Origin: Nitrospira tepida | Lineage (GTDB): Bacteria > Nitrospirota > Nitrospiria > Nitrospirales > Nitrospiraceae | Assembly: GCF_947241125.1 (NCBI RefSeq) | Contig: NZ_OX365700.1 | Location: 124,001-188,000 of the forward strand | Direction: 5' to 3' | DNA length: 64,000 nucleotides | Shown here: piece after piece, positions 24,249-38,875 of the stretch | How the letters are laid out: every line of letters begins with the position of its first letter | How positions within the stretch are numbered: position 1 is the first letter of the stretch | Notes under the pieces: generated by a model | Seen by the model: the letters and a program-made list of their open reading frames with translations, nothing else | The model's database searches: none | Told to the model about the DNA's origin: nothing | Position numbers and translations under genes: made by a program

Positions 24249-24411
24249 GAGCTGTAGCCCGCAATGTCATGCACAGGTTCGGCCGTCGGCGCGGCGTTCC
24301 CGGCAAGTTAGATGGTCTCATCGTTGCGGGCATGAACGAGGGTTGTGCGGCCGGATCGAGCGGTGTGTCGTCACGCGAAGAGCGTTCGGCTTTCCACGAA
24401 GGAGGTCGTCC

Positions 24412-24890
24412 ATGTCGGGCAAAGTGAACGCGATCCCCGTGGGGTATGAAGGCGCGACACCCTATCTCATCGTCAAGGACGCGACCCGCGCATTGGAGTT
24501 TTATCAGAAGGCCTTCGGAGCCACGGAGATCATGCGTATTCCGGCTCCGGAAGGAAAGGTGGGCCACGCGGAATCAAGATCGGGGCCTCGCTCATCATGC
24601 TGGCCGATGAATTCCCCGACATGAATTGCAGGAGTCCTCAGTCGTTCGGCGGCACACCCGTGAGTATCATGGTGTACGTCCAGGACGTGGACCGGTTCGT
24701 CAATCGAGCGGTTGCCGCCGGGGCCACGGTGCTCAGACCGGTTGAGAACAAGTTCTATGGCGACCGCGCAGCCAGCCTCGAAGATCCCTTTGGGCATCAA
24801 TGGCATTTCGCCACGCATGTGGAGGACATGCCTCCCGATGAACTGGCGAAACGGGCCGAGGCTTTCATGAAGCCGAAGGGCGGCGCGTAA
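24412..24890 (+). pseudogene. VOC (PhnB-like) family protein, single-base frameshift
   Basis: The ATG at 24412 has AAGGAGG before it. The first 53 codons read GYEGATPYLIVKDATRALEFYQKAFGATE, a glyoxalase/PhnB-like domain. At about 24572 the frame breaks; the next frame continues IMLADEFPDMN, VSIMVYVQDVDRFVNRAVAAG and DPFGHQWHFATHVEDM to the natural end. Adding one A in GAATC (to GAAATC) restores GHAEIKIGASLIMLADEFP, which matches the intact paralogue at 45841. So the gene was whole very recently or a base is missing in the sequence. Confidence 0.85.
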
Positions 24891-25026
24891 GCCATTGTCA
24901 GGCGAGGGCGGCGCGACTAATCGCAGAGGTGGGACAACACACAGGGCAATGAGAAGATTGCACATGGTGAGCCCGACAGCCTCGGGCAGTCGTTGTTGTC
25001 AGGCCTTACAGAGGCTTCAGGGCCAT

Positions 25027-25053
25027 TGTCGATTTCCGGCTGTCCGGTTCGAC
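25027..25053 (+). promoter_or_regulatory. Predicted ECF42-type promoter (TGTCGA-N17-CGAC)
   Basis: TGTCGA at 25027-25032 and CGAC at 25050-25053, 97 bases before the SRPBCC start codon. The same motif with spacing 16 or 17 precedes three YciI transcription units in the window. Confidence 0.65.
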
Positions 25054-25150
25054 TAAAGGGTAGGGTCATAAGACAAGCAGCCAGAACCAACCGAAGGCGC
25101 CTGTTCTGATCGCTTGAGAACTTCAAGTTGCCCTAATGTGGAGGTGTGAC

Positions 25151-25609
25151 ATGGCGGACATTATTCATCGCGTGGGAATCAAGGCTGGTCCTGACAAGGT
25201 GTTCAGGGCGCTCTCGACGATCGACGGACTGGCCGGTTGGTGGACCACCGACACGAGTGGCGTCGCTGATGTTGGGAAGATCATTTCCTTTCAGTTTCGC
25301 GACCCCAACGGAAAGACGATTGGCGGATTCGACATGGAAGTGGTGAAGCAAGAACCCGCCAAGAAGGTCCAGTGGAAGTGTGTTAAAGGGCCCGAGGAAT
25401 GGATCGGTACGGACATCACTTTCGATTTGAAACAAGAGAACGACTTCACGATTGTCCTGTTCGGCCATCGGAAGTGGAAGGAGTCCAGCGAGTTTACCGC
25501 CCATTGCAGCACGAAATGGGCGGTCTTCCTGATAAGTCTCAAGGAACTCGTCGAAACCGGGAAGGGCAGACCTTCTCCGAGAGATATCAAGATCGACAAT
25601 TGGAATTAG
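25151..25609 (+). CDS. SRPBCC (AHSA1/START-like) family protein
   Basis: 152 residues. The family start DIIHRVGIKAGPDKVFRALSTIDGLAGWW is typical of activator of Hsp90 ATPase homologue 1-like proteins, followed by the strands ISFQFRD, EVVKQEPAKKVQWK and a long C-terminal helix. These form a helix-grip hydrophobic pocket; the ligand is unknown. GGAGGTG immediately precedes the ATG. Two VOC genes follow at short distance, suggesting one operon driven by the ECF42-type motif upstream. Confidence 0.9.
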   Translation: MADIIHRVGIKAGPDKVFRALSTIDGLAGWWTTDTSGVADVGKIISFQFRDPNGKTIGGFDMEVVKQEPAKKVQWKCVKGPEEWIGTDITFDLKQENDFTIVLFGHRKWKESSEFTAHCSTKWAVFLISLKELVETGKGRPSPRDIKIDNWN

Positions 25610-25660
25610 CTCGGAAGAGGTGCCGCCTATGACGGGGTCCACCACAAAAAGGAGTCGGAC

Positions 25661-26068
25661 ATGATCGGCAAAATCTTCGTGAATCTTCCCGTAAGGGATC
25701 TGGACAAATCGATGACGTTCTTCAAAGCGATCGGCTTCTCGTTCAATCCGCAATTCACGGACAAGACCGCAGCCTGCATGGTCATGAGCGACGATATCTA
25801 CGCCATGTTGCTGACCCATCCAAAAATCAAGCAGTTCACCAAGAAACAGGTCGCCGATGCTCACGAGACCACCGAGGTCCTGACCGCCCTTTCGGTCGAA
25901 AGCAAGGCAAAGGTTCACGAGATGGCCGATGCCGCGACCCGGGCCGGCGGGAAGGAGGCGCGCGAGCCCCAGGATTACGGGTTCATGTTCGGGCGGAGCT
26001 TCGAGGACCCCGACGGGCATATCTGGGAAGTCTTCTGGATGGACCCGGCCCACGTGCAGAAGGGATAA
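25661..26068 (+). CDS. VOC family protein (glyoxalase/extradiol dioxygenase superfamily)
   Basis: 135 residues, two beta-alpha-beta-beta-beta modules. It begins KIFVNLPVRDLDKSMTFFKAIGF and ends SFEDPDGHIWEVFWMDP, as in the lactoylglutathione lyase-like single-domain members. The Glu in WEVFWM is the usual metal ligand. Substrate unknown. GGAGT precedes the ATG. It is 51 bases behind the SRPBCC gene. Confidence 0.9.
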   Translation: MIGKIFVNLPVRDLDKSMTFFKAIGFSFNPQFTDKTAACMVMSDDIYAMLLTHPKIKQFTKKQVADAHETTEVLTALSVESKAKVHEMADAATRAGGKEAREPQDYGFMFGRSFEDPDGHIWEVFWMDPAHVQKG

Positions 26069-26117
26069 GCGTTCGTATTGGAGCCGATAGCTCACGAGGG
26101 ATGCAGAAAGATCGACT

Positions 26118-26498
26118 ATGGCCATCACGTTGAATCATACGATCGTGCCGGCGCGCGATAAAGACGCTTCGGCCCGCTTCTTCGCGGATATCTTTGGATT
26201 GAAGTATGAAGGGTCGAGTGGATACTTCGCGCCGGTGCGGGTCAACGAGACCTTAACCCTGGATTTCGACGACGATGTCGAGGGGTTCGACATCCACCAC
26301 TATGCCTTCCACGTGAGCGATGAAGAGTTCGACGCCATTTTCAGCCGGATCCAACAGGCGGGGCTGGCCTACGGCAGCGAACCGTGGAATCTGGAGAATC
26401 GAAAGCTGAACAACTGGAACGGCGGCCGGGGCGTCTACTTCCGCGATCCCAACGGACATATCCTCGAATTGCTGACGCGCGTTCCCAGCGGGGGCTGA
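26118..26498 (+). CDS. VOC family protein
   Basis: 126 residues. The first module is LNHTIVPARDKDASARFFADIFGL and the second ends VYFRDPNGHILELLTR. The histidine in LNHTIV and the glutamate in HILEL are the metal-ligand positions of the superfamily, so a metal site is likely. This looks like the fosfomycin/bleomycin-resistance-like branch, but the substrate cannot be assigned. It is the third gene of the run that starts at 25151. Confidence 0.9.
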   Translation: MAITLNHTIVPARDKDASARFFADIFGLKYEGSSGYFAPVRVNETLTLDFDDDVEGFDIHHYAFHVSDEEFDAIFSRIQQAGLAYGSEPWNLENRKLNNWNGGRGVYFRDPNGHILELLTRVPSGG

Positions 26499-26591
26499 TG
26501 GAATCCGGCAGCCAGTCGCCGGATAGGCCCGGCCCCGTGGCGCAGGAACCGCGAACCTGCCGGCTATCCAGGGTCGGACAAGACGGATGAG

Positions 26592-28067
26592 ATGACTCAG
26601 ATGACACGAAAGGTCTTCACGTCACGTGCCATCGGAACGATCCTTGCCCTGCTGGCCGTCTCCACGGTTGCGGTCGTGGCGCTGATCCATCAACCGCAGG
26701 AGGTCCAACTGGTCACCTTCCTCTTGCCGCTGCTGGCCGTCTGGTACCTGCGCTCGAAAGGCTGGAGCGACGCTCGGTTGAGTTGGCAACTGCCACTTGC
26801 AGGGTACGCCTCGACCTTTGCGATTGGAGCGGGCCTGAGCCTATCCAATCAAGACCTGCGCACGGACGTGGAGCTGGTCGGAGCCTCGGCCTTTGCGGTC
26901 GTGACGGTTCTTGGGATCGCGCACCTGTACAAGGGCGTCCGTGCTCTTCCCGGAGAACAGCCGCCGCAGTGGAAGAAGGATGCCGCCGCCGGCCTGGTCT
27001 GTACCCTGCTGTTGGTCTGGGCAGTATCCTCGTTAGCCTATGCCTCTTACGAGGCCAAGCATCATGCCATACCGGTCAGCGCGATCTCGGGACAGCAATC
27101 CGCGGGCACTCCGCAGACGGCCAAGCCGGCGTCGGTCTGGATCGACACCGATCCTGCGTGCGGCGCCGGCACGACCGTCGATGTCGACGACTGTTGGGCG
27201 TTGCTGGCCGCCGTCCGTTCCCCGGAGCTGGCCATTCGCGGGATCAGCACGGTCTTCGGCAATCAGGACGGTCGCCGGGTCCACCGCGTGATTGAAGAGG
27301 TCCTGGCTCGCCTGGCTGGTGGACAACCGGCGGACGCCGCTCCATTCCAACTGCACGCGGGCAGCTCGGTCAGGGGTGGATCGGCCTGGCGCCCGACGCC
27401 GGCCTCGCAGGCATTGGCCGCAGCCCTGGAGCGGGAACCCTTGACCATCCTCGCCCTGGGACCCCTGACGAATATCGCGACGCTTCTCAGGCATCGCCCG
27501 GATCTCACGGAGCGGATCGAGCGGATTGTCCTCGTGGGAGGCAAGCGTCCCGGCCAACTCTTTCATCCCGGCCATCAATGGTGGTTCCACTTCGGCGACT
27601 TCAACATTGCCCAAGATCCTGACGCGGCCCGGATTGTGCTGTACTCCGGAGCGCCCGTCACGCTCGTGCCCTTCGACCTAGCCACGAAGTTGGTCGTCAC
27701 CGAAGCCGATCTCGAACGCCTGCGCGAGGGCGATGGGGCCGCCAAATGGCTGAGCGAGGTCAGTCAGCCGTGGCTCTCGTTCTGGAACACGATGTTGGGG
27801 AAGCCGGGGTTTCATCCCTTCGACGTGTTGGCCGTGGCCTACGCCGCCATGCCTGAACACTTTCGCTGTCGGCGGATTCCGGCGCGGATCGGCTTCAACC
27901 TCTTCCTGGAGCCGTTCGGGATGGGACGTGATCTGGAAGTGGCCAAGGGCCTCCATGGTCCGCTCGTGACCGATTGCTACGATCTGGACCGCGAAGTCAA
28001 GGATGTGGTGCTCACCAGAATTCTTGGAGAGTCCTACGCCGCCTTCGACGTGAGCCGGGCCATGTAA
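26592..28067 (+). CDS. Membrane-anchored inosine-uridine nucleoside hydrolase-like protein
   Basis: 491 residues. The first 155 contain four or five hydrophobic segments (TILALLAVSTVAVVALIH, VTFLLPLLAVWYL, FAVVTVLGIAHLY, LVCTLLLVWAVSSLAY). After a linker the hydrolase domain begins at about 181 with VWIDTDPACGAGTTVDVDDCWALL. This is the calcium-binding Asp cluster of nucleoside hydrolases, with an insertion between the two Asp pairs. LTILALGPLTNIATLL and VLVGG follow in family order. It cleaves N-glycosidic bonds of ribonucleosides. Fusion to a polytopic membrane domain is unusual; normally the enzyme is about 310 residues and soluble. The ribosome site is weak. Confidence 0.8.
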   Translation: MTQMTRKVFTSRAIGTILALLAVSTVAVVALIHQPQEVQLVTFLLPLLAVWYLRSKGWSDARLSWQLPLAGYASTFAIGAGLSLSNQDLRTDVELVGASAFAVVTVLGIAHLYKGVRALPGEQPPQWKKDAAAGLVCTLLLVWAVSSLAYASYEAKHHAIPVSAISGQQSAGTPQTAKPASVWIDTDPACGAGTTVDVDDCWALLAAVRSPELAIRGISTVFGNQDGRRVHRVIEEVLARLAGGQPADAAPFQLHAGSSVRGGSAWRPTPASQALAAALEREPLTILALGPLTNIATLLRHRPDLTERIERIVLVGGKRPGQLFHPGHQWWFHFGDFNIAQDPDAARIVLYSGAPVTLVPFDLATKLVVTEADLERLREGDGAAKWLSEVSQPWLSFWNTMLGKPGFHPFDVLAVAYAAMPEHFRCRRIPARIGFNLFLEPFGMGRDLEVAKGLHGPLVTDCYDLDREVKDVVLTRILGESYAAFDVSRAM

Positions 28068-28175
28068 CGGTCTTGCAGCGGCGCATCTCCCTCGGGGAAC
28101 CAAACCAGCGCTGCGGCTGAGTCCTTTTCGTGCGACGATCGCTCAAAAAGAACATTGAACAAAAGGAGGCCAACC

Positions 28176-28778
28176 ATGCGACGCACACTCATCACCCTCA
28201 CCTGTCTCTGTCTTGTCATGGCCGGATCGCTCGCGGCGGCAAAAGAAAAGAAACCCTCAAAGCAGATGGACCAGCAGGCGATGATGGAGCTCTATCAGAA
28301 GCTCGCCATGCCGGGCGAGCCGCACAAGTTGCTGGCGAGCCTGGCCGGGAGCTGGACGACCCAGACGAAAGAATGGATGGAGCCGGGCAAGCCCCCCACG
28401 GAAGCGACCGGCACGGCGGACATGAAGATGGTGCTGGATGGCCGCTTTCTCCAGCAGGAATACAACAGCACCATGATGGGCCAGCCTTATACCGGCATCG
28501 GGGTCACCGCCTACGACAACCTGCGCAAGAAGTACGTCTCGACCTGGATCGACAGCATGGGCACGGGGATCTTTGTGATGGAAGGCACGGCCTGCCCCGA
28601 CAGCAAGACGATCACGCTTAAAGGATCGCACCCTGAGCCGGACGGGGGACAGATGACGCATCGCGCGGTCTGGAAGATTGTGGACGACAATACCCAGACC
28701 TTTGACATGTACGGGACGCATGGACACGGGAAGGAAATGAAGATGATGGAGATCACCTACACACGCAAGCAAAGCTGA
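28176..28778 (+). CDS. DUF1579 family exported protein
   Basis: 200 residues. A signal peptide (LITLTCLCLVMAGSLAAA) is followed by a Lys-rich patch and the DUF1579 core: HKLLASLAGSWTTQTKEWM, MVLDGRFLQQEY and GVTAYDNLRKKYVSTWIDSMGTG. The domain is a lipocalin-like or THAP4-like beta barrel. AAAGGAGG precedes the ATG at 28176; a TTG at 28155 is less likely. It is a close paralogue of the gene at 46454, even at the DNA level. Confidence 0.92.
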   Translation: MRRTLITLTCLCLVMAGSLAAAKEKKPSKQMDQQAMMELYQKLAMPGEPHKLLASLAGSWTTQTKEWMEPGKPPTEATGTADMKMVLDGRFLQQEYNSTMMGQPYTGIGVTAYDNLRKKYVSTWIDSMGTGIFVMEGTACPDSKTITLKGSHPEPDGGQMTHRAVWKIVDDNTQTFDMYGTHGHGKEMKMMEITYTRKQS

Positions 28779-28887
28779 GAAACAAGGCGGCCGTTCATAG
28801 CACTTGTGAGCGGTCGCCTCCCCTGATCCCATTCCTCTGGCGCATCAGTCCCCTGCACTGCGCGCTTTGACCGTCGGACATGACCCT

Positions 28888-29346
28888 ATGACCACAGCAG
28901 CAGTGATGGCCTTTCTTCACCATGTCGCGGCGTTCACGCTCGTGGGCGCACTGATGGCGGAACTCGCGCTGTTCGGAGCCGCTCTCGACCTCAGGCAAGC
29001 GCGGAGGGTGCAGCGTGTTGATGCGGCTTACGGAATGTCGGCGGGCGTCTTGTTGGTGGCCGGCCTGCTGCGGGTGTTGTACTTCGAGAAGGGCGCCTCA
29101 TACTATTTTCATAATGCGTTCTTCCTCGCGAAGGCGGCGCTCTTCCTCCTCGTCGCGCTGCTCTCGCTCTATCCGACCCTGCTGTTTCTGTCGTGGAACA
29201 AACAGCTCAAGGCAGGCGGCCTGCCTCGCCTTGAAGAGGCTCAGGTGCGACGAGTGCGCGCGGTCATGCTGGTGGAGTTGGCAGGAGTCGTCGGAATCGT
29301 GTTCTGTGCCTCGCTCATGGCGCGTGGGAGCGGCATGATCGAATGA
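28888..29346 (+). CDS. DUF2214 family membrane protein
   Basis: 152 residues with four membrane helices (AFLHHVAAFTLVGALMAELAL, AAYGMSAGVLLVAGLLRVLYF, FFLAKAALFLLVALLSLYPT, MLVELAGVVGIVFCASLMA). The HH pair in helix one, RVLYFEKGASYYFHN between helices two and three, and FLSWNK after helix three match DUF2214. No function is known for this family. Histidines within the membrane might bind haem or metal (inference). The start ATG is at 28888; a TTG at 28867 is possible. Confidence 0.85.
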   Translation: MTTAAVMAFLHHVAAFTLVGALMAELALFGAALDLRQARRVQRVDAAYGMSAGVLLVAGLLRVLYFEKGASYYFHNAFFLAKAALFLLVALLSLYPTLLFLSWNKQLKAGGLPRLEEAQVRRVRAVMLVELAGVVGIVFCASLMARGSGMIE

Positions 29347-29427
29347 CCGCATCATGCCATCGGCACTTGCTCCATGCCCTACGCCTTATACAATAAGCTA
29401 TACGCTCTGCCGCCTTCTTGTCGGCCT

Positions 29428-30093
29428 ATGAGTCGCCAGATCCTCATTGTCAGCGCGCACCCCGATGACATGGAAATCGGTATGGGAGGAACCGTCGCCA
29501 AACTGGTTGAGGAGCGCGCTGAGATTACCTCTCTTGTCGTGACAGATGGCGGCCGGGCCTCGAACCCCTTCGGCTGGACGGAACAACGAATGGCTGACGT
29601 GCGGCGGACTGAAGCCCTGCGGGCCGCAGAGGTCTTGGGTGTAACGGAGGTCATCTTCTGTGACCAGCCGGACGCGGCGGACGAGGTTGATGAAGTGGCA
29701 GTCAGGCGGAAGCTCGTCGCGGTCATGACTCGCCTCAAGCCCATCGAGGTCTACACGCTTCACGAAGAACTCGATCGACATCCGGGCCACCGCCAGGCGG
29801 GCCGGCTGGTGCGGGAAAGTGCCGCTGAATCGGATCTCATGCCGAGCGGAGGGGTGTGGGCCTATGAAGTCTGGGGTCCGTTCGCCAGGTGGGATCGCCT
29901 GGAGTACATCGATGTCTATGTGGAGAAAAAGAGGCTGGCCATCGCGGAACATCGCAGTCAGGTGGCAACGATCCCTTACGGGGACGGGGTGTTGGGATTG
30001 AACCGTTGGCGCGCCGTGTTTGCCGATCCCATGGCCGAAACCCCAGCCGGCACCTATGCGGAAGTATTCCTTCGTGTGGCCATCGGGCGATAG
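29428..30093 (+). CDS. PIG-L family deacetylase
   Basis: 221 residues. The zinc motif SAHPDDMEIGMGG (His 11, Asp 13, Asp 14) and HPGH (His 118, His 121) match the LmbE/PIG-L superfamily, which deacetylates N-acetylglucosaminyl conjugates such as mycothiol or bacillithiol precursors. TDGGRAS after strand two is also typical. The real substrate is unknown. The ATG at 29428 starts directly at the fold; an upstream frame of 18 codons is probably not translated. The catalytic Asp of AHPDD is intact. Confidence 0.9.
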   Translation: MSRQILIVSAHPDDMEIGMGGTVAKLVEERAEITSLVVTDGGRASNPFGWTEQRMADVRRTEALRAAEVLGVTEVIFCDQPDAADEVDEVAVRRKLVAVMTRLKPIEVYTLHEELDRHPGHRQAGRLVRESAAESDLMPSGGVWAYEVWGPFARWDRLEYIDVYVEKKRLAIAEHRSQVATIPYGDGVLGLNRWRAVFADPMAETPAGTYAEVFLRVAIGR

Positions 30094-30141
30094 GAAACGG
30101 TGTCGGACCCGTTGTCGTCCTCGCGAGAGCCAGGCTACGAG

Positions 30142-30200
30142 CAGTCAGCTATCAGCATTGTTCGTTCACCCTCAGCACTCAGCACTTAGAACTCAGCACT
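30142..30200. repeat. Degenerate intergenic heptamer repeat (TCAGCAC type)
   Basis: CAGTCAGCTATCAGC is followed shortly by CTCAGCACTCAGCACTTAG and ACTCAGCACT. Units of about seven bases containing CAGC recur five or six times. The 190 bases between the PIG-L gene and the HicA gene hold no other feature. Confidence 0.5.
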
Positions 30201-30282
30201 GCCCCTCTTCAAGTTGACACAACGGCCAGCGGGTCGTAGCTTGTAACCGGCTGAACATTCGATCGCCGCTGTTTCGCGCCCT

Positions 30283-30495
30283 TCAAAGATCATCCGGCAT
30301 GAGCCCCGTCACCTTGGATATACGCGCCAGCATGCGCGGCCCGATTTCGTCCCGGTCGTGAAATGCGAAGACGACATCGGGCCAGCCGGTCCGTTGGGGG
30401 ACTTTGTGGGAACCAGTCGTCCGTTTGATTTGCCAACCGATGCAGAGAAGTGCGGGGAGAACCCGGGAGGCTTGTGTTGAAGGCCAGCGGCTCAT
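30283..30495 (-). CDS. hicA: HicA family mRNA interferase toxin
   Basis: 70 residues. It shows the small dsRBD-like HicA fold: ALLCIGWQIKRTTGSHKV with catalytic His 30, followed by VFAFHDRDEIGPRMLARISKVTGL, which is the HicA strand and C-terminal helix. HicA cleaves mRNA. Its ATG overlaps the stop of the antitoxin gene by four bases (ATGA), so it is translated by coupling after HicB. Confidence 0.88.
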   Translation of the reverse strand: MSRWPSTQASRVLPALLCIGWQIKRTTGSHKVPQRTGWPDVVFAFHDRDEIGPRMLARISKVTGLMPDDL

Positions 30496-30713
30496 GCCGC
30501 AATGAAGGAGACGTTCAGCAGTTCCTCAGGTACCGCTTCGTTGTGTTCGAGACGATCGGCCATCGCGCGAAGGGCCAAGGCTTGAACTGCGGCGAGCGCA
30601 GCAGCTCGTGTCTGGCCATAAGCCATCACACCAGGCAACGTCGGCACTTCACCAATCCATCGGCCATCTTCTTCCTGTTCCAACTCAATCTTGAGCTGTG
30701 TCACCTTCGCCAT
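30492..30713 (-). CDS. hicB: HicB family antitoxin
   Basis: 73 residues: KIELEQEEDGRWIGEVPTLPGVMAYGQTRAAAL is the degraded RNase-H-like HicB fold and QALALRAMADRLE its helix. The protein is short and has no C-terminal ribbon-helix-helix or HTH, so it may not bind DNA itself. It neutralises the HicA toxin encoded directly downstream. The start at 30713 is the only one that fits the domain; the frame runs further upstream through a MITE-like element but that part is not coding. Confidence 0.88.
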   Translation of the reverse strand: MAKVTQLKIELEQEEDGRWIGEVPTLPGVMAYGQTRAAALAAVQALALRAMADRLEHNEAVPEELLNVSFIAA

Positions 30714-30739
30714 GGCTTTCCTCAAAAATAGATGACCCC

Positions 30740-30953
30740 AGCCCGCATTATTCATGACAGTTCGTCGCGAAATTGCGGAGTCGCCAGGCGAGACGGGCGC
30801 ACGGAGCCGCGAGGAAGGGAGGCAGACTTGAAACAGTCTGTTGACCGACCGAGCGGCGAGTCCGCCCGGCAACATGCCGCCGAAGCCGCATGTTGGCTTG
30901 TCGCAGCGGCGAATCCACAATTGCAGCAGAAGTGCTCATGAATAATGCGGGCT
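30740..30953. mobile_element. MITE-like element with long terminal inverted repeats
   Basis: AGCCCGCATTATTCATGA at 30740-30757 is matched exactly in inverse orientation by TCATGAATAATGCGGGCT at 30936-30953. The similarity continues imperfectly about 25 bases inward (TTCGTCGCGAAATTGCGG against TTCTGCTGCAATTGTGG). The 214-base element has no coding capacity for a transposase. A related end is seen at 39779-39812. It lies upstream of hicBA, whose promoter it may supply or disrupt. Confidence 0.8.
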
Positions 30954-31072
30954 AGGCTAAGCCCGAGCCCGTGGAAAAGCAAGTCGCCAAGAGCACTGCC
31001 GTGCGCCGTGAAATGGTGCCTGACAAGGTGTTCTTCGTCTAAAATACCTCATTGCCTTTCCCCATGCTGCCC

Positions 31073-31726
31073 ATGTCTGAATACTCGGGCGCCTCGGGTC
31101 TCGCTGGTGCACGGAAAGTCATGGCGAGTGTCCTGCTCGCGGGATGCTTGGCCGTCCTGGAGACGATTCCGGCTGTGGCGGGGACCGAGTTCTCGCCGTC
31201 GTCGGTCGCGAAGGGCGTGCTGCTCGTCGCCAGCCCAATGCTGAACGATACGAACTTTCATCAAACTGTCGTGCTCATCCTGGAGCACGGGCCCGAGGGA
31301 ACGCTAGGGCTCGTGCTGAATCGCGCCACGAACGTCCTCCTGTCCGAGGCGTTGCCAGAGGTCACCGTGCTCAAGGGGACCAGCTACCGGCTGTTTGCAG
31401 GCGGGCCGGTCGAGCCAACCCGCCTGCTCCTGCTGTTCCGCGTCAAAGAGCCTCCGGCGGACGCGCGACCGGTTTTCGACGGGGTCTATGTGGGAGGCAC
31501 CACGGCGGTCCTGGAACAGATCATCACGCAGGGTAAACCGACCGAAACCTTCCGGGTATTTGCCGGTTCTGCCGGGTGGGCTCCGGGACAACTGGCATTT
31601 GAAATGCTCCAGGGGGCCTGGGCCACGCTGCAGCCTGGTTCGGTCGACATCTTCGAGAGGGACCCGGCCACATTCTGGCAGGACTGTCTCAGTCGCCTCC
31701 AAGCGCCCAGGGTGATCTCCAATTAG
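31073..31726 (+). CDS. YqgE/AlgH family protein with N-terminal signal peptide
   Basis: 217 residues from the ATG at 31073. The family core begins GVLLVASPMLNDTNFHQTVVLILEHGPEGTLGLVLNRAT and continues with FAGGPVEPTRLLLLF and FRVFAGSAGWAPGQL. YqgE proteins are usually cytosolic and start at the core. Here about 40 residues precede it with a hydrophobic run (MASVLLAGCLAVLETIPAVAG), so it is probably exported. An alternative start at 31121 has GGAAAG before it and would leave just the signal peptide. The function of the family is not established. Confidence 0.88.
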   Translation: MSEYSGASGLAGARKVMASVLLAGCLAVLETIPAVAGTEFSPSSVAKGVLLVASPMLNDTNFHQTVVLILEHGPEGTLGLVLNRATNVLLSEALPEVTVLKGTSYRLFAGGPVEPTRLLLLFRVKEPPADARPVFDGVYVGGTTAVLEQIITQGKPTETFRVFAGSAGWAPGQLAFEMLQGAWATLQPGSVDIFERDPATFWQDCLSRLQAPRVISN

Positions 31727-32031
31727 GGAGAGAGGGGGCGGTCTGGGCTATCCCTCCTGCTCGCCGCCCGCGCACACAATATCAATCACATTGTTCGATT
31801 GCTGGCGGTGCTCGGTCAATGTGTGCAATTGAGGGACAGATCCAGACCACCCCTCGAGGGGAAGAAGTACGAGCAAGCTTGGAAGGAGCATAGGGATCTG
31901 TGCTCGCGGAACGCGCACACCCGCCGGCGTTATTCGTCGTAATTAATACGTGCATTTCGCCATGTCGCTGAGTTGACACTCATATTTGGCAGAAGGAGAA
32001 AGGGTCAGGCCTTGTAATCGCACATGGTCGG
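31727..32031. other. Intergenic region with one copy of the GGGTCAGG motif
   Basis: About 300 bases without gene. At 32002-32025 lies GGGTCAGGCCTTG TAATCG CACAT, related to 2635-2659. The rest shows no promoter or RNA feature that I can support. Confidence 0.4.
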
Positions 32032-32217
32032 TCAGCAGACCCTCTCAAAGTCCAGTTTGCTCGACATGCGGACGCTGTCGATGCGGGTTCCGGACCGTTT
32101 GAACACCACGCGATAGTCGCCGGCTCTCAATCGGTACAGGCTCTCCTTGAAGCCCTGCAACTTCTTGATGCGCCTTCCGTCAGGAATGGGATCGCGCGCG
32201 ACGGTGGGGAAGTATAC
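32032..32217 (-). pseudogene. RelE/ParE-type toxin remnant, 5' truncated
   Basis: The open frame from 32217 to the TGA at 32032 reads ARDPIPDGRRIKKLQGF, then YRLRAGDYRVVFKRSGTRID and KLDFERVC. This is the C-terminal two thirds of a RelE/ParE toxin (core motif YRLRxGDYRV). A TAA codon lies just upstream and the N-terminal helix pair is missing, so no complete protein can be made. It lies 12 bases behind the Phd-type antitoxin gene and is probably a decayed second toxin or a recombination scar. Confidence 0.7.
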
Positions 32218-32229
32218 TTAGTGGATGAT

Positions 32230-32478
32230 TTACTTGCGCCGGCGGAGACCTGCTTTGACTTGGCTCAGCGAACGTGTGGACTGCTTCCGGCGAGCATGAA
32301 TGAGTTTCCAGAACTTGGGGTCGGTCTGAAGAACGACTGATTCCCAATCTTGTTTGCTCACTCCCACTAGCACTGCGGCTGGCTTGCCTTGGCGCGTAAT
32401 GACCACTCGGTCATTTTGCGCCTGAGTAACGAACTTGTCGGTGTGTCTCCGCAGGTCTTGGACTGTGGCCTTCTTCAT
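32230..32478 (-). CDS. Phd/YefM-type antitoxin
   Basis: 82 residues. The N-terminal KKATVQDLRRHTDKFVTQAQNDRVVITRQGKPAAVLVGV is the Phd/YefM fold that dimerises and binds DNA; the basic C-terminus (RRKQSTRSLSQVKAGLRRRK) would wrap the toxin. It starts inside the end of the toxin gene (ATGA overlap), so the order here is toxin first. AGGATG upstream could serve as ribosome site by coupling. Confidence 0.88.
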   Translation of the reverse strand: MKKATVQDLRRHTDKFVTQAQNDRVVITRQGKPAAVLVGVSKQDWESVVLQTDPKFWKLIHARRKQSTRSLSQVKAGLRRRK

Positions 32479-32774
32479 AGGATGTCTTCCGTTGTTCGGC
32501 CAGATGGCTTCTTCCGAATGGCTCGAATATACACCACTCGCTCTTCTGCTGCCACGTCGTAAAACACTCGGTAATCGCCGACCCTAAGCTCCCAGATTGG
32601 TGGCTCGGCCGTCCACGGTGGGATCAGTCCCATCAAGATCTTTCGATTACGAGAAACCCGAGCCGGTTCATTCGCGAGACTGCGTTCTATGGCGTCGATG
32701 ATCGTGTTCCGATGGAAGGCCGATAGTCTCTTGAGATCTTGTTCCGCGCCCTTGGCCAATCGAATGTCGTACAC
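32475..32774 (-). CDS. RelE/ParE family toxin
   Basis: 99 residues. The family pattern is intact: IRLAKGAEQDLKRLSAFHRNTIIDAIE (two helices), WELRVGDYRVFYDV and VYIRAIRKK (beta sheet). It has the basic residues of ribosome-dependent RNases or gyrase poisons; which of the two cannot be told. It is the first gene of the toxin-antitoxin operon and ends in the start of the antitoxin gene. Toxin-first order is less common for this family but well known (higBA-like). Confidence 0.88.
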   Translation of the reverse strand: MYDIRLAKGAEQDLKRLSAFHRNTIIDAIERSLANEPARVSRNRKILMGLIPPWTAEPPIWELRVGDYRVFYDVAAEERVVYIRAIRKKPSGRTTEDIL

Positions 32775-33059
32775 ATTCGAATCGTGGCATAGGTGCCGCA
32801 GGGAGTCAATTCATCGCATCTGGAACTCTTCAAAACAGAGTCCGCGTGCGGCAGTCGCCTAGTTCGCCTTGTTGAGCGTTGGCGGGACCCACGGATGAAG
32901 GTGCGGAATTGTCATCGTCAGCGTCGTGGCGACGGCGCACACGGTACCGATGACGAATTAGGTCCAGGTAGCGGGCCGCCTCCCGCTCGTTGACTCAGGC
33001 ACCCCTCGGCAGTAGCCTACCTCTCTGAAGCCTTCTTGACCTTTATTATGGTTGCTCCG

Positions 33060-33449
33060 ATGCCACGGCGTTTCGATCACGTTGACCTCCGCGTGCACAG
33101 CCTGGCCGAGGCGCGGCCGTTTTATGAGACGCTCCTGCCCGCGCTTGGGTTCACGCGCAGGGTCGAAATCGAGGGATGGCTCCAATATGAGGCGGAGGGA
33201 ACGGATGGCGCGACCGAGTTCGTCGGCGTGACGGAGTCGCCGCAGCACGTGGCGAACGAATGCAGGATCGCGTTCCGGGCCGAGAGCATGCGCGAGGTCG
33301 AGCGGCTAGCCGCGATTGCGATTCAGGCCGGCGCGCGACAGGTCGAGGGGCCGCTGTACGAAGAGGCGTCCTACTACGCCGTCTTTTTCCAGGACCCCAG
33401 CGGGAATCGCCTGGAAATCTGTTATCGCACCCGCGAAGAGAATCTGTGA
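33060..33449 (+). CDS. VOC family protein
   Basis: 129 residues. RRFDHVDLRVHSLAEARPFYETLLPALGF opens the domain and YYAVFFQDPSGNRLEICYRTR closes it, the standard single-domain VOC layout, with His and Glu metal positions present. ATG codons at 33048 and 33060 are both possible; no ribosome site decides. It stands 74 bases before the OsmC gene and could be co-transcribed with it and the sigma factor. Confidence 0.88.
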   Translation: MPRRFDHVDLRVHSLAEARPFYETLLPALGFTRRVEIEGWLQYEAEGTDGATEFVGVTESPQHVANECRIAFRAESMREVERLAAIAIQAGARQVEGPLYEEASYYAVFFQDPSGNRLEICYRTREENL

Positions 33450-33522
33450 GCATGTTAGGTTTGTCCGTGCGGGGGATGGCGATTCATTGGACAAATCGTA
33501 ACCCTTAGAGAGGGCTTGAGCG

Positions 33523-33972
33523 ATGTCTGAACACAAGGTCACGCTAGAATGGAAGAGAGAATCGGAGAGTTTCTCGTACGAGTCCTATAATCGAGACCAT
33601 GTGTTGGTATTTGAAGGTGGTGTTCGAGTTCCGGCATCAGCCGCACCAGCCTATCGTGGGAATCCCGCTCACGTGAATCCTGAAGAAGCCCTCGTCGGGG
33701 CCTTGTCGAGTTGTCATATGCTGACCTTCTTGGCGCTCGCTTCGAAGAAACAGTTTATCGTTGATGCCTACCGTGATCAGGCTGTTGGGTTTCTGGAAAA
33801 GAACGCAAAGGGCAAGCTGGCGGTCACGCGTGTCATCTTGAGTCCTCAGGTCGTATTCGGCGGGACGAATCCCCCAACCGCTGAGCAAATCGTGTCCCTC
33901 CATGAACGAGCCCATGCCGAATGCTTCATTGCCAACTCGGTGCTCACGGAGGTGACGGTCTTAGCAGAGTGA
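33523..33972 (+). CDS. OsmC family peroxiredoxin-like protein
   Basis: 149 residues. The two redox cysteines lie at LSSCHMLTFLALA (Cys 64) and HAECFIANSV (Cys 134), as in OsmC/Ohr. The region NPAHVNPEEALVGALSSCH matches the OsmC side rather than Ohr. It reduces organic hydroperoxides at the cost of a lipoylated or thiol donor. It ends 84 bases before the sigma factor start, suggesting one operon. Confidence 0.92.
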   Translation: MSEHKVTLEWKRESESFSYESYNRDHVLVFEGGVRVPASAAPAYRGNPAHVNPEEALVGALSSCHMLTFLALASKKQFIVDAYRDQAVGFLEKNAKGKLAVTRVILSPQVVFGGTNPPTAEQIVSLHERAHAECFIANSVLTEVTVLAE

Positions 33973-34056
33973 CAGAGCCGGTTTCTGTCTCTTGTGCCAG
34001 CAGGAGGCGATCTCTATGAGGAATTGTCGAAAGTGAGCGACGACGCAGCCAAACCG

Positions 34057-35286
34057 ATGAGCGACGTGGTGGAGGCGGTTTATCGCTCGGAGTCGCGCCA
34101 GGTGCTCGCAACGTTGATCCGATTACTCGGCGATTTTGACACGGCCGAGGAGGCGCTGCACGAGGCCTTCGCCGCGGCCGTGGAACAATGGGCGCGGGAC
34201 GGCCTGCCGGCCAATCCCCGCGCCTGGCTGGTCTCGACCGGCCGCTTCAAGGCGATCGACGGTCTGCGCCGGCGGGCTCGATTCGATGCCTCGCTGTCGG
34301 AACTGGCAAAACAACTGGAAACCAGCACCGATGACGCCGCCGAATGGGACGACGAGCACGTCGAAGACGACCGGCTGCGGTTGATCTTTACCTGTTGCCA
34401 CCCGGCCCTGCCGCCGGAGTCCCAAGTGGCCATGACCTTGCGGGAGGTCTGCGGCCTCACGACCGAAGAGATCGCCCGGGCCTTTCTCACGAAGCCGGCC
34501 ACGATCGCCCAGCGGATCGTGCGGGCCAAGGCCAAGATCCGAGACGCGCGCATTCCGTACGTCGTGCCGTCGGAGCGCGATCTCCCGGACCGGCTGGAGG
34601 CGGTGCTCCGGGTCGTCTACCTGGTGTTCAACGAGGGGTACAGCGCGTCGTCGGGCGGGTCGCTCACGCGGCACGATCTGTCGGGCGAGGCGATCCGCCT
34701 GGGACGGGTGCTGATTGCTTTGCTCCCGGAGCCGGAAGCGATGGGCCTTCTGGCGATGATGTTGCTGCAGGATTCCCGGTGCGCGGCACGCACCTCTCCG
34801 ACGGGCGACCTGATTCTGCTGGAGGAGCAGGACCGCTCCCTGTGGAATCGCGAGCAGATTGCCGAAGGGGTCTCGCTGGTGGAACGGGCGCTGTCCGCTC
34901 CCCGCATCGGGCCCTACAGCATCCAAGCGGCGATCGCCGCGGTGCATGCCCAGGCCCCCAGCGCCGCTGCCACGGATTGGGCGCAGATCGTCGGCCTCTA
35001 CGACCTGCTGATGCAGGCGGAACCGTCGCCGGTGATCGAGTTGAACCGGGCGGTCGCGGTGGCGATGCGCGACGGCCCCTCGGCCGGACTGGCCATCATC
35101 GACGCCGTCCTCGCGCGCGGCGATCTCGCGAACTATCACCTCGCGCATTCCGCGCGGGCGGATCTCTGCCGGCGGCTGGAGAAGACGGCGGACGCCAGAG
35201 CTGCTTACGAACGCGCCCTTTCGCTCACGCAGCAGGAACCGGAGCGGCGCTTTCTCCAGCGGCGGCTGAGCGAGCTAAAGGACTGA
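34057..35286 (+). CDS. ECF42-type RNA polymerase sigma factor with C-terminal TPR-like extension
   Basis: 409 residues. Sigma region 2 spans VEAVYRSESRQVLATLIRLLGDFDTAEEALHEAF, region 4 is SQVAMTLREVCGLTTEEIARAFLTKPATIAQRIVRAK (landmarks). After that comes the DUF6596-like core (LPDRLEAVLRVVYLVFNEGYSAS) and a long helical tail with IELNRAVAVAMRDGPSAGLAIID and YHLAHSARADLCRRL. This long C-terminal extension and its association with YciI/DGPF genes identify ECF42. No anti-sigma gene is adjacent, as usual for the group. Upstream in-frame starts (GTG 33994, GTG 34033) are possible; 34057 fits the family N-terminus. Confidence 0.93.
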   Translation: MSDVVEAVYRSESRQVLATLIRLLGDFDTAEEALHEAFAAAVEQWARDGLPANPRAWLVSTGRFKAIDGLRRRARFDASLSELAKQLETSTDDAAEWDDEHVEDDRLRLIFTCCHPALPPESQVAMTLREVCGLTTEEIARAFLTKPATIAQRIVRAKAKIRDARIPYVVPSERDLPDRLEAVLRVVYLVFNEGYSASSGGSLTRHDLSGEAIRLGRVLIALLPEPEAMGLLAMMLLQDSRCAARTSPTGDLILLEEQDRSLWNREQIAEGVSLVERALSAPRIGPYSIQAAIAAVHAQAPSAAATDWAQIVGLYDLLMQAEPSPVIELNRAVAVAMRDGPSAGLAIIDAVLARGDLANYHLAHSARADLCRRLEKTADARAAYERALSLTQQEPERRFLQRRLSELKD

Positions 35287-35354
35287 GAGGGGAGTCGTAG
35301 GGCGATAGGGCGCTAGATGGAGAAGCGCGAAGAGTTCAGCCATGCGCGCAACGA

Positions 35355-35525
35355 TCAGTTATTGGGCATGCGATCCACCACCCGGTCCCATTCCTTGATG
35401 GCTGGTTTGACATGGTGGTTGAGATGGGTCAGGGCTGCATAAAGCCGCCCTTCATACTCATCCCGTTTCTCGTGTGTGGGGGAAAGAGATTTCAAGATCG
35501 CCGTCAGTCCTCGATTCTTAATCAT
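35355..35525 (-). CDS. Small hypothetical protein
   Basis: 56 residues, ATG at 35525: a basic N-terminus (MIKNRGLTAILKSL) followed by a helical, charged stretch ending in EWDRVVDRMPNN. It overlaps the end of the equally unknown frame upstream by eight bases, which suggests a two-gene unit. No family recognised. The region between the sigma factor and the alkA gene is otherwise empty. Confidence 0.4.
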   Translation of the reverse strand: MIKNRGLTAILKSLSPTHEKRDEYEGRLYAALTHLNHHVKPAIKEWDRVVDRMPNN

Positions 35526-35709
35526 GGCGCTTCCCTTTCCTGAGTCGCCGCGTCAAGTTCTCCACGGTCAATTCCCACGCTTTAATCTCGACTGTCCAAT
35601 GTCGGATGAGACTCAAATTAGGAGTCGTACGCTGACGTTCGAGGACAATCTTGATCTGATGATCCGTGATCCGCTGCTCTGTAACGCAAACCGTACCGTT
35701 GTTTCTCAA
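35518..35709 (-). CDS. Small hypothetical protein
   Basis: 63 residues from a TTG at 35709 with the pattern ITDHQIKIVLERQRTTPNLS and TVEIKAWELTVENLTRRLRK, mostly helical and basic at the end. No family recognised. Support comes only from the overlap with the next small frame and the absence of any other gene here. Confidence 0.35.
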   Translation of the reverse strand: MRNNGTVCVTEQRITDHQIKIVLERQRTTPNLSLIRHWTVEIKAWELTVENLTRRLRKGKRHD

Positions 35710-35882
35710 ACGATGTCAACGGCACTTGCCTATCTCACGCCGTACTCAGCTTAAGAAACCCGGTCTGGTGATCAGTCACACTCCCGATTGCGCGCCGGCA
35801 CCTCGTCTGGTTCTATCCTTCTGTGGATCTGTGGTTGTCATGTCCGAAAATGGCGAGCAGGCGTCGTCTCGCCCTGTCTATA

Positions 35883-37253
35883 ATGACACCCATGACGCTC
35901 GATGCCGCTACCTGCTACCGGGCTCTGCGGGCGCGCGATGCGCGCTTCGACGGACGATTCTTCGTCGCCGTGTCGTCCACGCGCATCTACTGCCGTCCCA
36001 TCTGCACGGTGAAGCCGCCGCGGCCCGAGCACTGCCGTTTCTATCCGAGCGCCGCCGCGGCTGAAGTGGCCGGCTTTCGGCCCTGCCTGCGCTGCCGGCC
36101 CGAGCTGGCGCCGGGCAATGCCAGCGTGGACGCGACGACGCGCGTGGCCCAGGCTGCGGCCAGCTTGATCGAAGACCGGACGCTCGAGGCTGAAGGGCTG
36201 GCGGCCATCGCGGGGCGCCTCGGCATTACCGACCGGCACTTGCGGCGCGCATTCAGCGCCGAGTTCGGCGTATCGCCGATCGAGTTTGCGCAAACCCAAC
36301 GTCTGCTCCTTGCGAAGCGCCTGCTCACCGACACCGGCCTGCCGGTCACGGAAATTGCGTTCGCCAGCGGCTTCGGCAGCGTACGGCGCTTCAACGCCCT
36401 GTTCAAACAGCGCTATCGCCTGCAGCCTGCACAGTTGCGCCGGCGCCTGAACGGCGAGGCCGTACATATTGGCGACGTCTTGAACTTCGAACTGAGCTTC
36501 CGCCCACCCTATGATTGGCCGGCGGTCAGTGCGTTTCTTGGCGCGCGGGCGATTGCCGGCGTCGAGATGTTCGAGGGAACCTGCTACCGGCGGACGGCGC
36601 GCATAGCATCGGCGGGTCAGGATTACTTCGGGTGGATAGAGGTAGGGTTGTCGGCGAATAAGCCGGCATTGCGGGTCGCTGTGTCTGCGTCGCTCGCTTT
36701 GGTGCTGCCGCCGGTGCTCTCGCGGGTCAAGGCGCTCATGGACCTGTCCTGCAATCCGGCTGAGGTGGCGGCGGCGCTGGGCCGGTTGGCATCGCGCCGT
36801 CCCGGTCTGCGCGTCCCCGGAGCGTTCGACGGATTCGAAGTGGCGGTGCGCGCGATTCTTGGACAACAAGTCGCGGTGGCCGCGGCGCGGACGCTGGCTG
36901 GCCGCTTTGCGGCCGCGCTCGGCGATCCGATCGAGACGCCGTTTGCTGCGCTCACGATAGTATTTCCCACCGCGGCGCGCGTGGCCGACGGCGACCTCAT
37001 GCTGCTGCCCAACGCCGATCTCGACGCCACGCTGGAGCGATTGCGCGCGCTGCAGGGCGTCGGCGAGTGGACGGCGCAGTACATCGCCATGCGGGCGCTC
37101 GCCTGGCCCGATGCGTATCCCCACACGGATCTCGGCGTGATGAGAGCGCTGGGCGAGAGGGATGCGCGCCGCGTCCTCGAAGCCGGTGAAGCCTGGCGGC
37201 CATGGCGCGCTTATGCCGTGATGCACCTCTGGAATGCAATGACACAGGAGTGA
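35883..37253 (+). CDS. alkA: Ada N-terminal domain fused to AlkA DNA-3-methyladenine glycosylase
   Basis: 456 residues. Residues 1-80 are the Ada zinc domain (IYCRPIC, and FRPCLRC near the end), where one cysteine accepts methyl groups from phosphotriesters. Next is an AraC-type HTH (LEAEGLAAIAGRLGITDRHLRRAF, IDEFAQ-like IEFAQTQRLLLAKRL). From about 200 on comes the AlkA N-terminal domain and the helix-hairpin-helix GPD glycosylase core (LRALQGVGEWTAQYIAMRALAWPDAYPHTDLGVMRAL, with the catalytic Asp in HTDLG). It senses alkylation, activates transcription and removes alkylated bases. Start codon 35883 or 35892 cannot be decided. The ogt gene follows directly. Confidence 0.93.
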   Translation: MTPMTLDAATCYRALRARDARFDGRFFVAVSSTRIYCRPICTVKPPRPEHCRFYPSAAAAEVAGFRPCLRCRPELAPGNASVDATTRVAQAAASLIEDRTLEAEGLAAIAGRLGITDRHLRRAFSAEFGVSPIEFAQTQRLLLAKRLLTDTGLPVTEIAFASGFGSVRRFNALFKQRYRLQPAQLRRRLNGEAVHIGDVLNFELSFRPPYDWPAVSAFLGARAIAGVEMFEGTCYRRTARIASAGQDYFGWIEVGLSANKPALRVAVSASLALVLPPVLSRVKALMDLSCNPAEVAAALGRLASRRPGLRVPGAFDGFEVAVRAILGQQVAVAAARTLAGRFAAALGDPIETPFAALTIVFPTAARVADGDLMLLPNADLDATLERLRALQGVGEWTAQYIAMRALAWPDAYPHTDLGVMRALGERDARRVLEAGEAWRPWRAYAVMHLWNAMTQE

Positions 37254-37255
37254 CC

Positions 37256-37741
37256 ATGTCCTACTACGACTACTATCACAGCCCCCACGGGCGCATGTTG
37301 CTGGTTGCCGACGATAGGGCGCTGACAGGCGTCTACTTCGCCGGGCAGAAGTATCAGCCGCGTATCGAACGGGATTGGGTGAGGGATGGGCGGCATGCGC
37401 CGATACGGCAGGTAAAGCATGAATTGGAGGAATATTTCGCCGGCAAGCGCAGACGCTTTACCGTCAAGGTCGCGCCGCGCGGCACGCCGTTCCAGCGCGC
37501 GGTGTGGAAGGCGATCGCCGGCGTCGGGTTCGGCAGGACCATTCCCTACGCGGAACTGGCGCGCCGCGCCGGCCGTCCGGGCAGTGCGCGCGCCGCTGGC
37601 GCGGCCACCGGCCGCAACCCGATCGGCATCATCGTCCCCTGTCACCGTATCGTCGGCTCGAACGGCGCGCTCACCGGCTACGCGGGCGGCTTGGCGAAAA
37701 AGCGCGCGCTCCTGGCGCTGGAAGGACGAGCCCAGCTCTAG
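37256..37741 (+). CDS. ogt: Methylated-DNA--protein-cysteine S-methyltransferase
   Basis: 161 residues. The active-site motif IIVPCHRIVGSNG has the acceptor Cys 129. FQRAVWKAIAGVGFGRTIPYAELA (landmark, about 79-102) is the DNA-binding helix-turn-helix with the arginine finger region. It transfers the methyl group of O6-methylguanine to itself in a suicide reaction. CAGGAG precedes the ATG, which is two bases after the alkA stop codon. Together the two genes contain all parts of Ada, split between two proteins. Confidence 0.95.
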   Translation: MSYYDYYHSPHGRMLLVADDRALTGVYFAGQKYQPRIERDWVRDGRHAPIRQVKHELEEYFAGKRRRFTVKVAPRGTPFQRAVWKAIAGVGFGRTIPYAELARRAGRPGSARAAGAATGRNPIGIIVPCHRIVGSNGALTGYAGGLAKKRALLALEGRAQL

Positions 37742-37753
37742 TCCGCCGCTCCC

Positions 37754-38125
37754 TCAACCGGGTTTCCGCCGATGAATCGTGATGGAATTGCCATCCGGAT
37801 CGGACACGACAGCCATGTGGCAGACCGGCGTCTCCAACGGCTCGAGGCGGAACGTGCAGCCGCTTGACCGCAGGCGCGCGACCGCGGCTTCGAAATCCTC
37901 CACTTCGAGACCGACCGATCCGCCGCCGGGAGAAGGCTTCCAATCAGGAGCCATGTTGCCGATCGCGAGCGTGCCGGGCCCGATGTCGTACTCGACGAAC
38001 CCGGTGTCTCCTGTCCCGAAGAACCGGGATTCTTTCAATCCCAGCACCTCTTCGTAGAACCGGCGAGCCCGGCTCAGGTCCGTGACCGGATAGCAGGTAA
38101 AGGCGATTTCTGTAATTTTCATCAT
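37754..38125 (-). CDS. VOC family protein
   Basis: 123 residues. ITEIAFTCYPVTDLSRARRFYEEVLGL opens the fold and CHMAVVSDPDGNSITIHRRK closes it, with the typical VYGNMAP-like loop as AIGNMAPDW. Metal positions are partly conserved (His at the end, no clear Glu at the first). GGAGG lies five bases before the ATG at 38125. It is the last gene of a three-gene minus-strand operon with the WYL regulator. Confidence 0.9.
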   Translation of the reverse strand: MMKITEIAFTCYPVTDLSRARRFYEEVLGLKESRFFGTGDTGFVEYDIGPGTLAIGNMAPDWKPSPGGGSVGLEVEDFEAAVARLRSSGCTFRLEPLETPVCHMAVVSDPDGNSITIHRRKPG

Positions 38126-38151
38126 CCTGTCCTCCGTGTCTTCCTAATTCG

Positions 38152-38862
38152 TTAGCCCTCCGGATCGAACTCGGAGAGCGGTACCGCATGGGTAGCCTCG
38201 AGCCATCGCAAATAGTCGATCAGGCGCTTGCCCGGCACATCCTGAAAGCATGTGTCGAGGATCTGTAGCCCGCTCATGCGGTCCAGGCGAAAACTGCGAA
38301 AGTCGCGACGCAGTTCGCACCAAGCCAACATCGTCCAAGTGCTCCCCCAGAAGAAGACCCCGAGCGGCCACACCACACGCCTCGTTTCCCTGTTCTCGGC
38401 ATCCTTGTAGTCAAGCTGCACGCGACGCTTGTCGTTGGCGGCCGAAATGACGCTGTTGAGATGCGGCTCGCGGGCTCGCTCACGCCGAGGCACATAGACA
38501 GGACTCTTCGACATGTCCGCGGCAACGGTGCCGGGCAAGACACTCCGGATTTTGGCCATCGCAGAGATCGCGGCGGAAGAGAGCGGCGCCTCGGTGTTGG
38601 CGTACACAAAGCGGAGCCCCAGCTCAATAGTGGTCAATTCCGTGCGATCGAACATCAATGGCGGGAGATCGAGTTTACGCCGCAGCACATAACCGACGCC
38701 TGCCTCTCCTTCGATCGGCGTGCCGGACCGAATGAGATCATTGATATCTCGATAGACCGTCCGCTTGGAAACGTCCAGCCTGGCTGCCAGCCACTCCGCC
38801 GTGGTCAGCGGCCGCGAGCGCAGGTACTGCACGATCTGAAACAGCCGGTCTGCCCGTCGCAT
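38152..38862 (-). CDS. YafY-type transcriptional regulator (HTH plus WYL domain)
   Basis: 236 residues. The DeoR-like winged helix (RRADRLFQIVQYLRSRPLTTAEWLAARLDVSKRTVYRDI, landmark) covers about 1-60. The WYL ligand-binding domain lies at about 130-200 (DKRRVQLDYKDAENRETRRVVWPLGVFFWGSTWTMLAWCELRRDFRSFRLDRM). WYL regulators sense small molecules or single-stranded DNA. It is flanked in the same operon by an ABM-like and a VOC gene; it probably controls this operon through the palindrome upstream at 39274. Confidence 0.93.
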   Translation of the reverse strand: MRRADRLFQIVQYLRSRPLTTAEWLAARLDVSKRTVYRDINDLIRSGTPIEGEAGVGYVLRRKLDLPPLMFDRTELTTIELGLRFVYANTEAPLSSAAISAMAKIRSVLPGTVAADMSKSPVYVPRRERAREPHLNSVISAANDKRRVQLDYKDAENRETRRVVWPLGVFFWGSTWTMLAWCELRRDFRSFRLDRMSGLQILDTCFQDVPGKRLIDYLRWLEATHAVPLSEFDPEG

Positions 38863-38875
38863 GTGTTAGGAGCGC

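Follow-up and report, generated by a model that had tools for sequence, protein, structure and literature searches.

The window analysed here is a stretch of 64,000 nucleotides of Nitrospira tepida DNA, from a genome that consists of one contig of 4.73 Mb. An open reading frame on the forward strand of the window (26592-28067) runs from an ATG start codon through 491 residues to a stop codon in one unbroken frame, and its product combines N-terminal membrane helices with a nucleoside hydrolase domain (Table 1). An AHSA1 protein and two glyoxalase-fold proteins are encoded upstream on the same strand, and DUF1579, DUF2214 and PIG-L proteins are encoded downstream. A glyoxalase-fold gene was found in two overlapping frames, 24343-24624 and 24597-24890, which correspond to positions 7-57 and 72-121 of PF00903, and the split at 24343-24890 looks like a frameshift or sequencing error within one gene.

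Table 1. Features of the window gene and of genes close to related hydrolases. Coordinates are window positions unless a locus number (L) is given.
Feature	Coordinates	Strand	Evidence
Whole gene, 491 residues and stop	26592..28067	+	Codon scores, coding from the first residue
Residues 1-62, first two helices, without cyanobacterial counterpart	26592..26777	+	Hydropathy, AlphaFold2, alignment, codon score 0.741
Helix 1, residues 14-32	26631..26687	+	Hydropathy 2.64
Helix 2, residues 35-53	26694..26750	+	Hydropathy 1.23; AlphaFold2 helix 35-55
Candidate alternative TTG start, residue 63 (three-helix form)	26778..26780	+	GGAG 10 bases upstream; weak
Helix 3, residues 67-85, weakest	26790..26846	+	Hydropathy 1.18; AlphaFold2 helix 61-83
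Helix 4, residues 95-113	26874..26930	+	Hydropathy 1.89
Helix 5, residues 131-149, where relatives have their single anchor	26982..27038	+	Hydropathy 2.08; alignments
Nucleoside hydrolase domain, residues 179-481	27126..28034	+	Pfam, AlphaFold2, structure comparison
Changed Asp motif, residues 185-201, 8-residue insertion, C190 and C201	27144..27194	+	Alignments
F410-D411, Phe then conserved Asp	27819..27824	+	Alignment
C426, conserved	27867..27869	+	31/31 rows reaching position
C462, conserved	27975..27977	+	31/31 rows reaching position
MarR-like gene	L044:5457-6017, L046:2161-2664, L048:3469-3999, L049:4835-5356, L063:6106-6684, L065:5247-5741		
Anthrone oxygenase-like small protein	L056:6347-6943, L059:4106-4609, L062:4186-4680, L067:1375-1836, L069:173-754		

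The reading frame was evaluated with a codon score derived from nine other window genes, which also supply its reference range (in-frame 5th percentile 0.415 and median 0.832, out-of-frame 95th percentile -0.48). Residues 1-62 scored 0.741 in frame and residues 63-160 scored 0.506, and the 93 bases 5′ of the gene gave negative scores in all three frames. An in-frame ATG, GTG or TTG was looked for at residues 142-190 and none was found. Because the N-terminus is coding and a start codon is absent near residue 160, the gene includes the membrane part. Initiation at the TTG at 26778 would still keep three helices in the product.

The initial annotation had described a nucleoside hydrolase joined to a polytopic membrane domain of four or five helices. 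The open reading frame, the Pfam domain, the hydropathy profile and the helices of the AlphaFold2 model confirm this fusion, and the N-terminus is best read as five helices from hydropathy and AlphaFold2 together. Three of the five hydropathy segments score at least 1.6. When the whole protein was shuffled 1000 times, three such segments arose within residues 1-165 in 3 cases; with 1000 shuffles restricted to the N-terminus, the number was 48. A cut-off low enough for helix 3 also picks three stretches of the soluble hydrolase (1.06-1.17); the counterparts of this helix in two cyanobacterial relatives described below have hydropathies of 1.47 and 1.71. The AlphaFold2 helices span residues 2-33, 35-55, 61-83, 91-116 and 127-157. 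Their confidence is low to moderate (block means of about 41-82), compared with mostly above 90 in the hydrolase. Modeling the N-terminus alone gave the same five long helices with a poor mean pLDDT of 51.4. A match of residues 15-120 to the EccD-like transmembrane domain PF19053 was rejected (15.5 bits against a cut-off of 30). Residues 1-181 had no match in plasmids at E values up to 1, and the five matches of residues 1-159 in 295 genomes of the phylum were the protein itself and four weak hits (E 3.6e-4 to 0.008), taken as chance; internal stop codons interrupt two of these four.

The remainder of the protein is a nucleoside hydrolase domain. Residues 182-433 matched Pfam family IU_nuc_hydro (PF01156) at 144.5 bits (cut-off 34.2), and comparison of the model of residues 178-481 with solved structures gave Z scores of 27-34, with nucleoside or riboside hydrolases making up all 50 of the matches listed. 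None of the NCBIfam equivalogs RihA, RihB, RihC and UriH reached its cut-off (best 94.7 bits against 382). The same genome encodes a second nucleoside hydrolase elsewhere, with an ordinary DTDPGVDD motif. A different genome from the same family has one open frame at L004:1339-3303 on the reverse strand that combines, behind an apparent lipoprotein signal (judged by eye), a DUF900 alpha/beta hydrolase (158.7 bits) with a nucleoside hydrolase of the ordinary type (291.3 bits); this would be a second exported fusion, of another kind.

The Ca2+ ligands of nucleoside hydrolases are carried by the motif DXDXXXDD (PMC10526354). An insertion in this Asp motif had been noted initially, and it is indeed present: every Asp is found in the window protein, which reads D185-T-D187-P-A-C190-G-A-G-T-T-V-D-V-D199-D200-C201, so that eight extra residues give D-x-D-x11-DD compared with the ordinary D-x-D-x3-DD. 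The DNA pattern DTDxACG-x5-DxDD was run on 84,980 genomes, one per species, and proved to be rare, with 34 loci mainly from Alpha-, Beta- and Gammaproteobacteria, together with Nitrospirota and two cyanobacteria. No match to the pattern was found in viral contigs. Because the search pattern fixes the first motif, variants of it would be missed. Of the 34 loci, 31 carry a hydrophobic anchor or signal peptide ahead of the motif: 23 have a hydrophobic stretch and a WRTG-type motif, eight have the stretch without WRTG, and three have neither in the same frame, two of which end at the edge of the sequence (L068, L073) and one of which is split by an insert (L069).

An alignment of 32 rows was made that includes the window protein; L044, L054, L061 and L068, which are broken or cut, were omitted and L021 was added. 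L064 ends before residue 409 and was excluded from the counts at 409-462. D187, D199, D200, N224, D336, N338 and D411 are kept in every row that reaches them, with the conservation of the first-motif Asp residues and C190 among the 34 loci given by construction, as the search pattern fixes them. C201, C426 and C462 were outside the pattern. C190 and C201 are present in all 32 rows and C426 and C462 in all 31 rows that reach them, and 25 of the 32 rows have no further Cys from the motif onward. As a control, 48 nucleoside hydrolases were taken from loci found otherwise. The short form D-x-D-x3-DD, with no Cys after it, is present in 44 of them, x5 spacing without Cys in one, and x11 spacing with Cys in three that are members of the branch; a Cys after the DD pair is thus found in 0 of 45 ordinary nucleoside hydrolases compared with 3 of 3 branch members.

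Other active-site positions are changed as well. Groups I, II and III of the nucleoside hydrolases have His, Trp and Cys, respectively, before the last metal-binding Asp (PMC10526354). None of these residues is present at this position, which is F410 in the window protein, Phe in 30 of the 31 rows reaching it and Tyr in one. GN and EXN are described as the ribose-binding motifs (PMC10526354). GN was absent from residues 315-339 of the window protein, where it was sought, and is present in 4 of the 32 rows; the Glu of EXN is replaced by Asp in 32 of 32 rows, the window protein reading D-F-N. Arg335, directly before this Asp, is found in 24 of 32 rows and is Gly in the window protein. In RihA, Ca2+ is bound by D10, D15 and D241 and N166 holds the water (PMC2898832), and by alignment these correspond to D187, D200, D411 and N338.

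Taken together, the motif, the cysteines and the anchor mark what the sequences suggest is an exported branch of nucleoside hydrolases. The window protein has the traits of this branch, namely the inserted motif, C201, C426, C462 and an N-terminal anchor, which consists of five helices and not one. The insertion noted initially is a trait of the whole exported branch and is not bound to the membrane fusion. Relatives close to the window protein are few. Among the other 294 genomes sampled from the phylum, three have a close intact relative (38-44% identity) and one has a broken one; the three intact relatives have the inserted motif, one helix or a signal peptide, and positions in other clades of the tree. 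No close relative was found in 60 other genomes of kin, and in a single-sequence scan of genome contigs 28 stretches matched and no relative was confirmed. Matches to 282 plasmid records and 7 phage records were below 60% identity and none spanned 80% of the query; those listed start no earlier than about residue 135 and resemble ordinary nucleoside hydrolases.

In the window (24343-41739), the gene is surrounded by glyoxalase-fold, AHSA1, YCII and DUF6596 sigma-factor genes. Relatives of these genes are near the hydrolase in 8 of the 34 loci (L045, L047, L053, L054, L055, L056, L061 and L074), a raw count in which only some of the families are Pfam-named. A MarR-like gene is near the exported hydrolase in six of the 34 loci (24.4 bits for the one scanned, cut-off 27), and a small anthrone oxygenase-like protein adjoins the hydrolase on the same strand in five, including Calothrix (below the Pfam cut-off for the four scanned); both are likewise raw counts. 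Neither gene was seen beside the window gene.

The last three helices are common only to two of the relatives found, those of Calothrix elsteri (L069) and Microcoleus (L100), which are also the closest relatives in hydrolase sequence. The C. elsteri hydrolase is nearest, with 53-56% identity and a sister position in the tree (support 99/97), and the three-helix part is 38-40% identical between the window protein and the cyanobacterial copies. In C. elsteri, residues 62-145 of the window protein match (38% identity) a separate frame directly upstream of the hydrolase, from which it is separated by a 161-base element with matching inverted ends (L069:1166-1326). The element is flanked by an 11-base direct repeat at positions 1155 and 1327 of L069, and the repeat spacing of 172 bases is equal, modulo 3, to the change between the two frames. 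Seven full-length copies of the element (at least 88% identity, this one included) are present in the C. elsteri genome (G324), and further diverged or partial copies were observed there. In Microcoleus, the three helices run into the hydrolase in one frame and the hydrolase is interrupted further on. Both copies differ from the window protein in lacking its first two helices and in being broken, by the element in one and within the hydrolase in the other. It follows from the in-frame fusion in Microcoleus that cyanobacteria had a fused form with three helices; the window protein is this form extended by two helices. Searches of 291 genomes of the cyanobacterial order and 338 of the class, which are overlapping draws, gave no further match of similar score (next best E 8.6e-17 and 3.8e-22). 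The three-helix module alone had three matches in the 291 genomes of the cyanobacterial order, two of them already known; the third looked ABC transporter-like by eye (E 2.1e-4) and was taken as chance.

It had been suggested from the sequence that the enzyme is placed at the membrane, possibly with the active site outside. Our data support this as the best reading of the odd helix number, the Lys/Arg count, the relatives and the cysteines. With the helices set by hydropathy, a count from the sequence gave 10 Lys/Arg on the inside stretches (1-13, 54-66, 114-130) compared with 1 on the outside stretches (33-34, 86-94), as in an N-in topology. If the N-terminus is inside, then an odd number of helices (five) will result in a hydrolase that is outside, and the fused cyanobacterial relatives have three helices, likewise an odd number. 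The cysteines are conserved and nearly exclusive, and together with the anchors they fit an oxidising compartment. The hydrolase domain most likely faces outside the cytoplasm, as judged from these sequence features.

The protein is most likely a membrane-tethered periplasmic hydrolase that would cleave nucleosides or related N-ribosides. The five N-terminal helices, with the N-terminus in the cytoplasm, would form an uncleaved anchor in the inner membrane that holds the folded nucleoside hydrolase at the periplasmic face. D187, D200 and D411, together with a backbone carbonyl near T293, would hold Ca2+, to which the diol of the ribose would bind and which would activate a water molecule; cleavage of the N-ribosidic bond would release base and ribose outside the cytoplasm. 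The gene, fold, motif, helices and family distribution come from computation in this study, and Ca2+ binding and catalysis would follow the mechanism carried over from RihA and its kin. Going by residue position, two disulfides are probable, one between C190 and C201, at either end of the inserted loop next to the metal site, and one between C426 and C462. Because Phe410 replaces His, Trp or Cys, the leaving group is probably activated in a manner unlike that of groups I-III. Changes in the pocket for the 5′ end of the ribose mean that something other than a plain nucleoside may be preferred, and with the His, Trp or Cys, GN and the Glu of EXN all missing, activity on nucleosides is not assured. 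We consider this reading as a whole, an inner-membrane five-helix anchor and a periplasmic Ca2+-dependent N-riboside hydrolase with two disulfides and altered leaving-group chemistry, to be likely. Points that weigh against it are the weakness of helix 3, the poorly modeled membrane part, the Gly in place of Arg335 and the broken state of both cyanobacterial copies. A more far-reaching proposal is that of a fourth, exported group of nucleoside hydrolases, with disulfides, a Cys-closed loop, Phe, a rebuilt 5′ pocket and a non-plain surface substrate, in which the five-helix module couples cleavage to product uptake or sensing; this is tentative and somewhat doubtful.

Ordinary nucleoside hydrolases serve salvage within cells, and an intracellular role of this kind would suit a hydrolase domain that faces the cytoplasm. 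Such a protein would have four membrane-crossing helices and cytoplasmic nucleosides as its substrate, perhaps beside an uptake system, and the weakness of helix 3 (1.18, compared with 1.06-1.17 in the soluble-domain stretches) is in its favor. However, the positive-inside count of 10 to 1, the strength of helix 3 in the cyanobacterial relatives, the single anchor or signal peptide of other relatives and the four conserved cysteines make this orientation quite unlikely. The initial annotation had also considered a start near residue 160 that would give a soluble enzyme. Neither ATG 26592 nor ATG 26601 has a clear Shine-Dalgarno or ribosome site, as might be expected if the ATG had been wrongly assigned, but residues 1-62 and 63-160 are both coding in frame, start codons are absent at residues 142-190, and the helices are conserved and in Microcoleus are also fused. 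A soluble internal start was rejected from the codon scores and the lack of an in-frame start codon, and its probability is close to negligible.

The domain may also have ceased to be a nucleoside hydrolase and may act as a ligand receptor or catalyse a quite different reaction. F410 in place of the leaving-group residue and the changed 5′ pocket point in this direction, as do reports that other exported proteins of this fold have different roles (PMC12503489). Loss of the hydrolase is nevertheless unlikely, since D187, D199, D200, N224, D336, N338 and D411 are all kept, the first three of them within the search pattern. Lastly, the gene may have been acquired horizontally and may be decaying without a role here. 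The lack of a close relative in the 60 kin genomes, the three intact relatives from other clades in 294 phylum genomes, and nearest relatives that are cyanobacterial (99/97) and broken are consistent with such a history, but the frame, the codon usage and the metal-site residues are intact, and we regard decay as very unlikely.

The literature searched, which left most subscription journals outside, yielded no membrane-fused or four-cysteine exported bacterial nucleoside hydrolase. The multi-helix anchored member of the exported branch is new here, and the branch itself was not found described in that literature. According to a 2023 review, the physiological role of nucleoside hydrolases is unclear for the majority of organisms; its main text nowhere uses the words periplasm, membrane or extracellular (PMC10526354). 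In Asaia, a nucleoside hydrolase is listed among the released proteins and marked 'No', apparently for having no predicted signal (PMC12502724). The exported branch and its multi-helix version offer a direct test of bacterial nucleoside or N-riboside cleavage outside the cytoplasm, and the Phe-bearing branch offers a test of what the leaving-group residue must be.

Secreted nucleoside-hydrolase-like folds have been described in gall-forming microbes, and the type III effector HopQ1 is cited as unable to bind standard nucleosides (PMC12503489). As in the window protein, the fold is used there outside the producing cell; by description, however, these proteins belong to eukaryotic secretomes or are an injected effector, and the account as seen in part mentions no multi-helix anchor (PMC12503489). 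The enzymes of PF01156 (RihA, RihB and RihC, plant NRH, and those of Crithidia and Leishmania) share with the window protein the fold and, by alignment, the metal- and ribose-site Asp and Asn residues. In contrast to these enzymes, the window protein has the 8-residue insertion, Phe for His, Trp or Cys, no GN and DxN for ExN, and additionally has four conserved Cys and a membrane anchor. The inserted motif, the cysteines, the Phe and export by an anchor or signal peptide are common to the window protein and the branch of 34 loci. In the branch, however, there is one hydrophobic stretch in 31 of 34 loci compared with five helices here, and the WRTG-type motif of 23 loci is absent from the window protein; its distinctive element is the multi-helix anchor and not the motif change.
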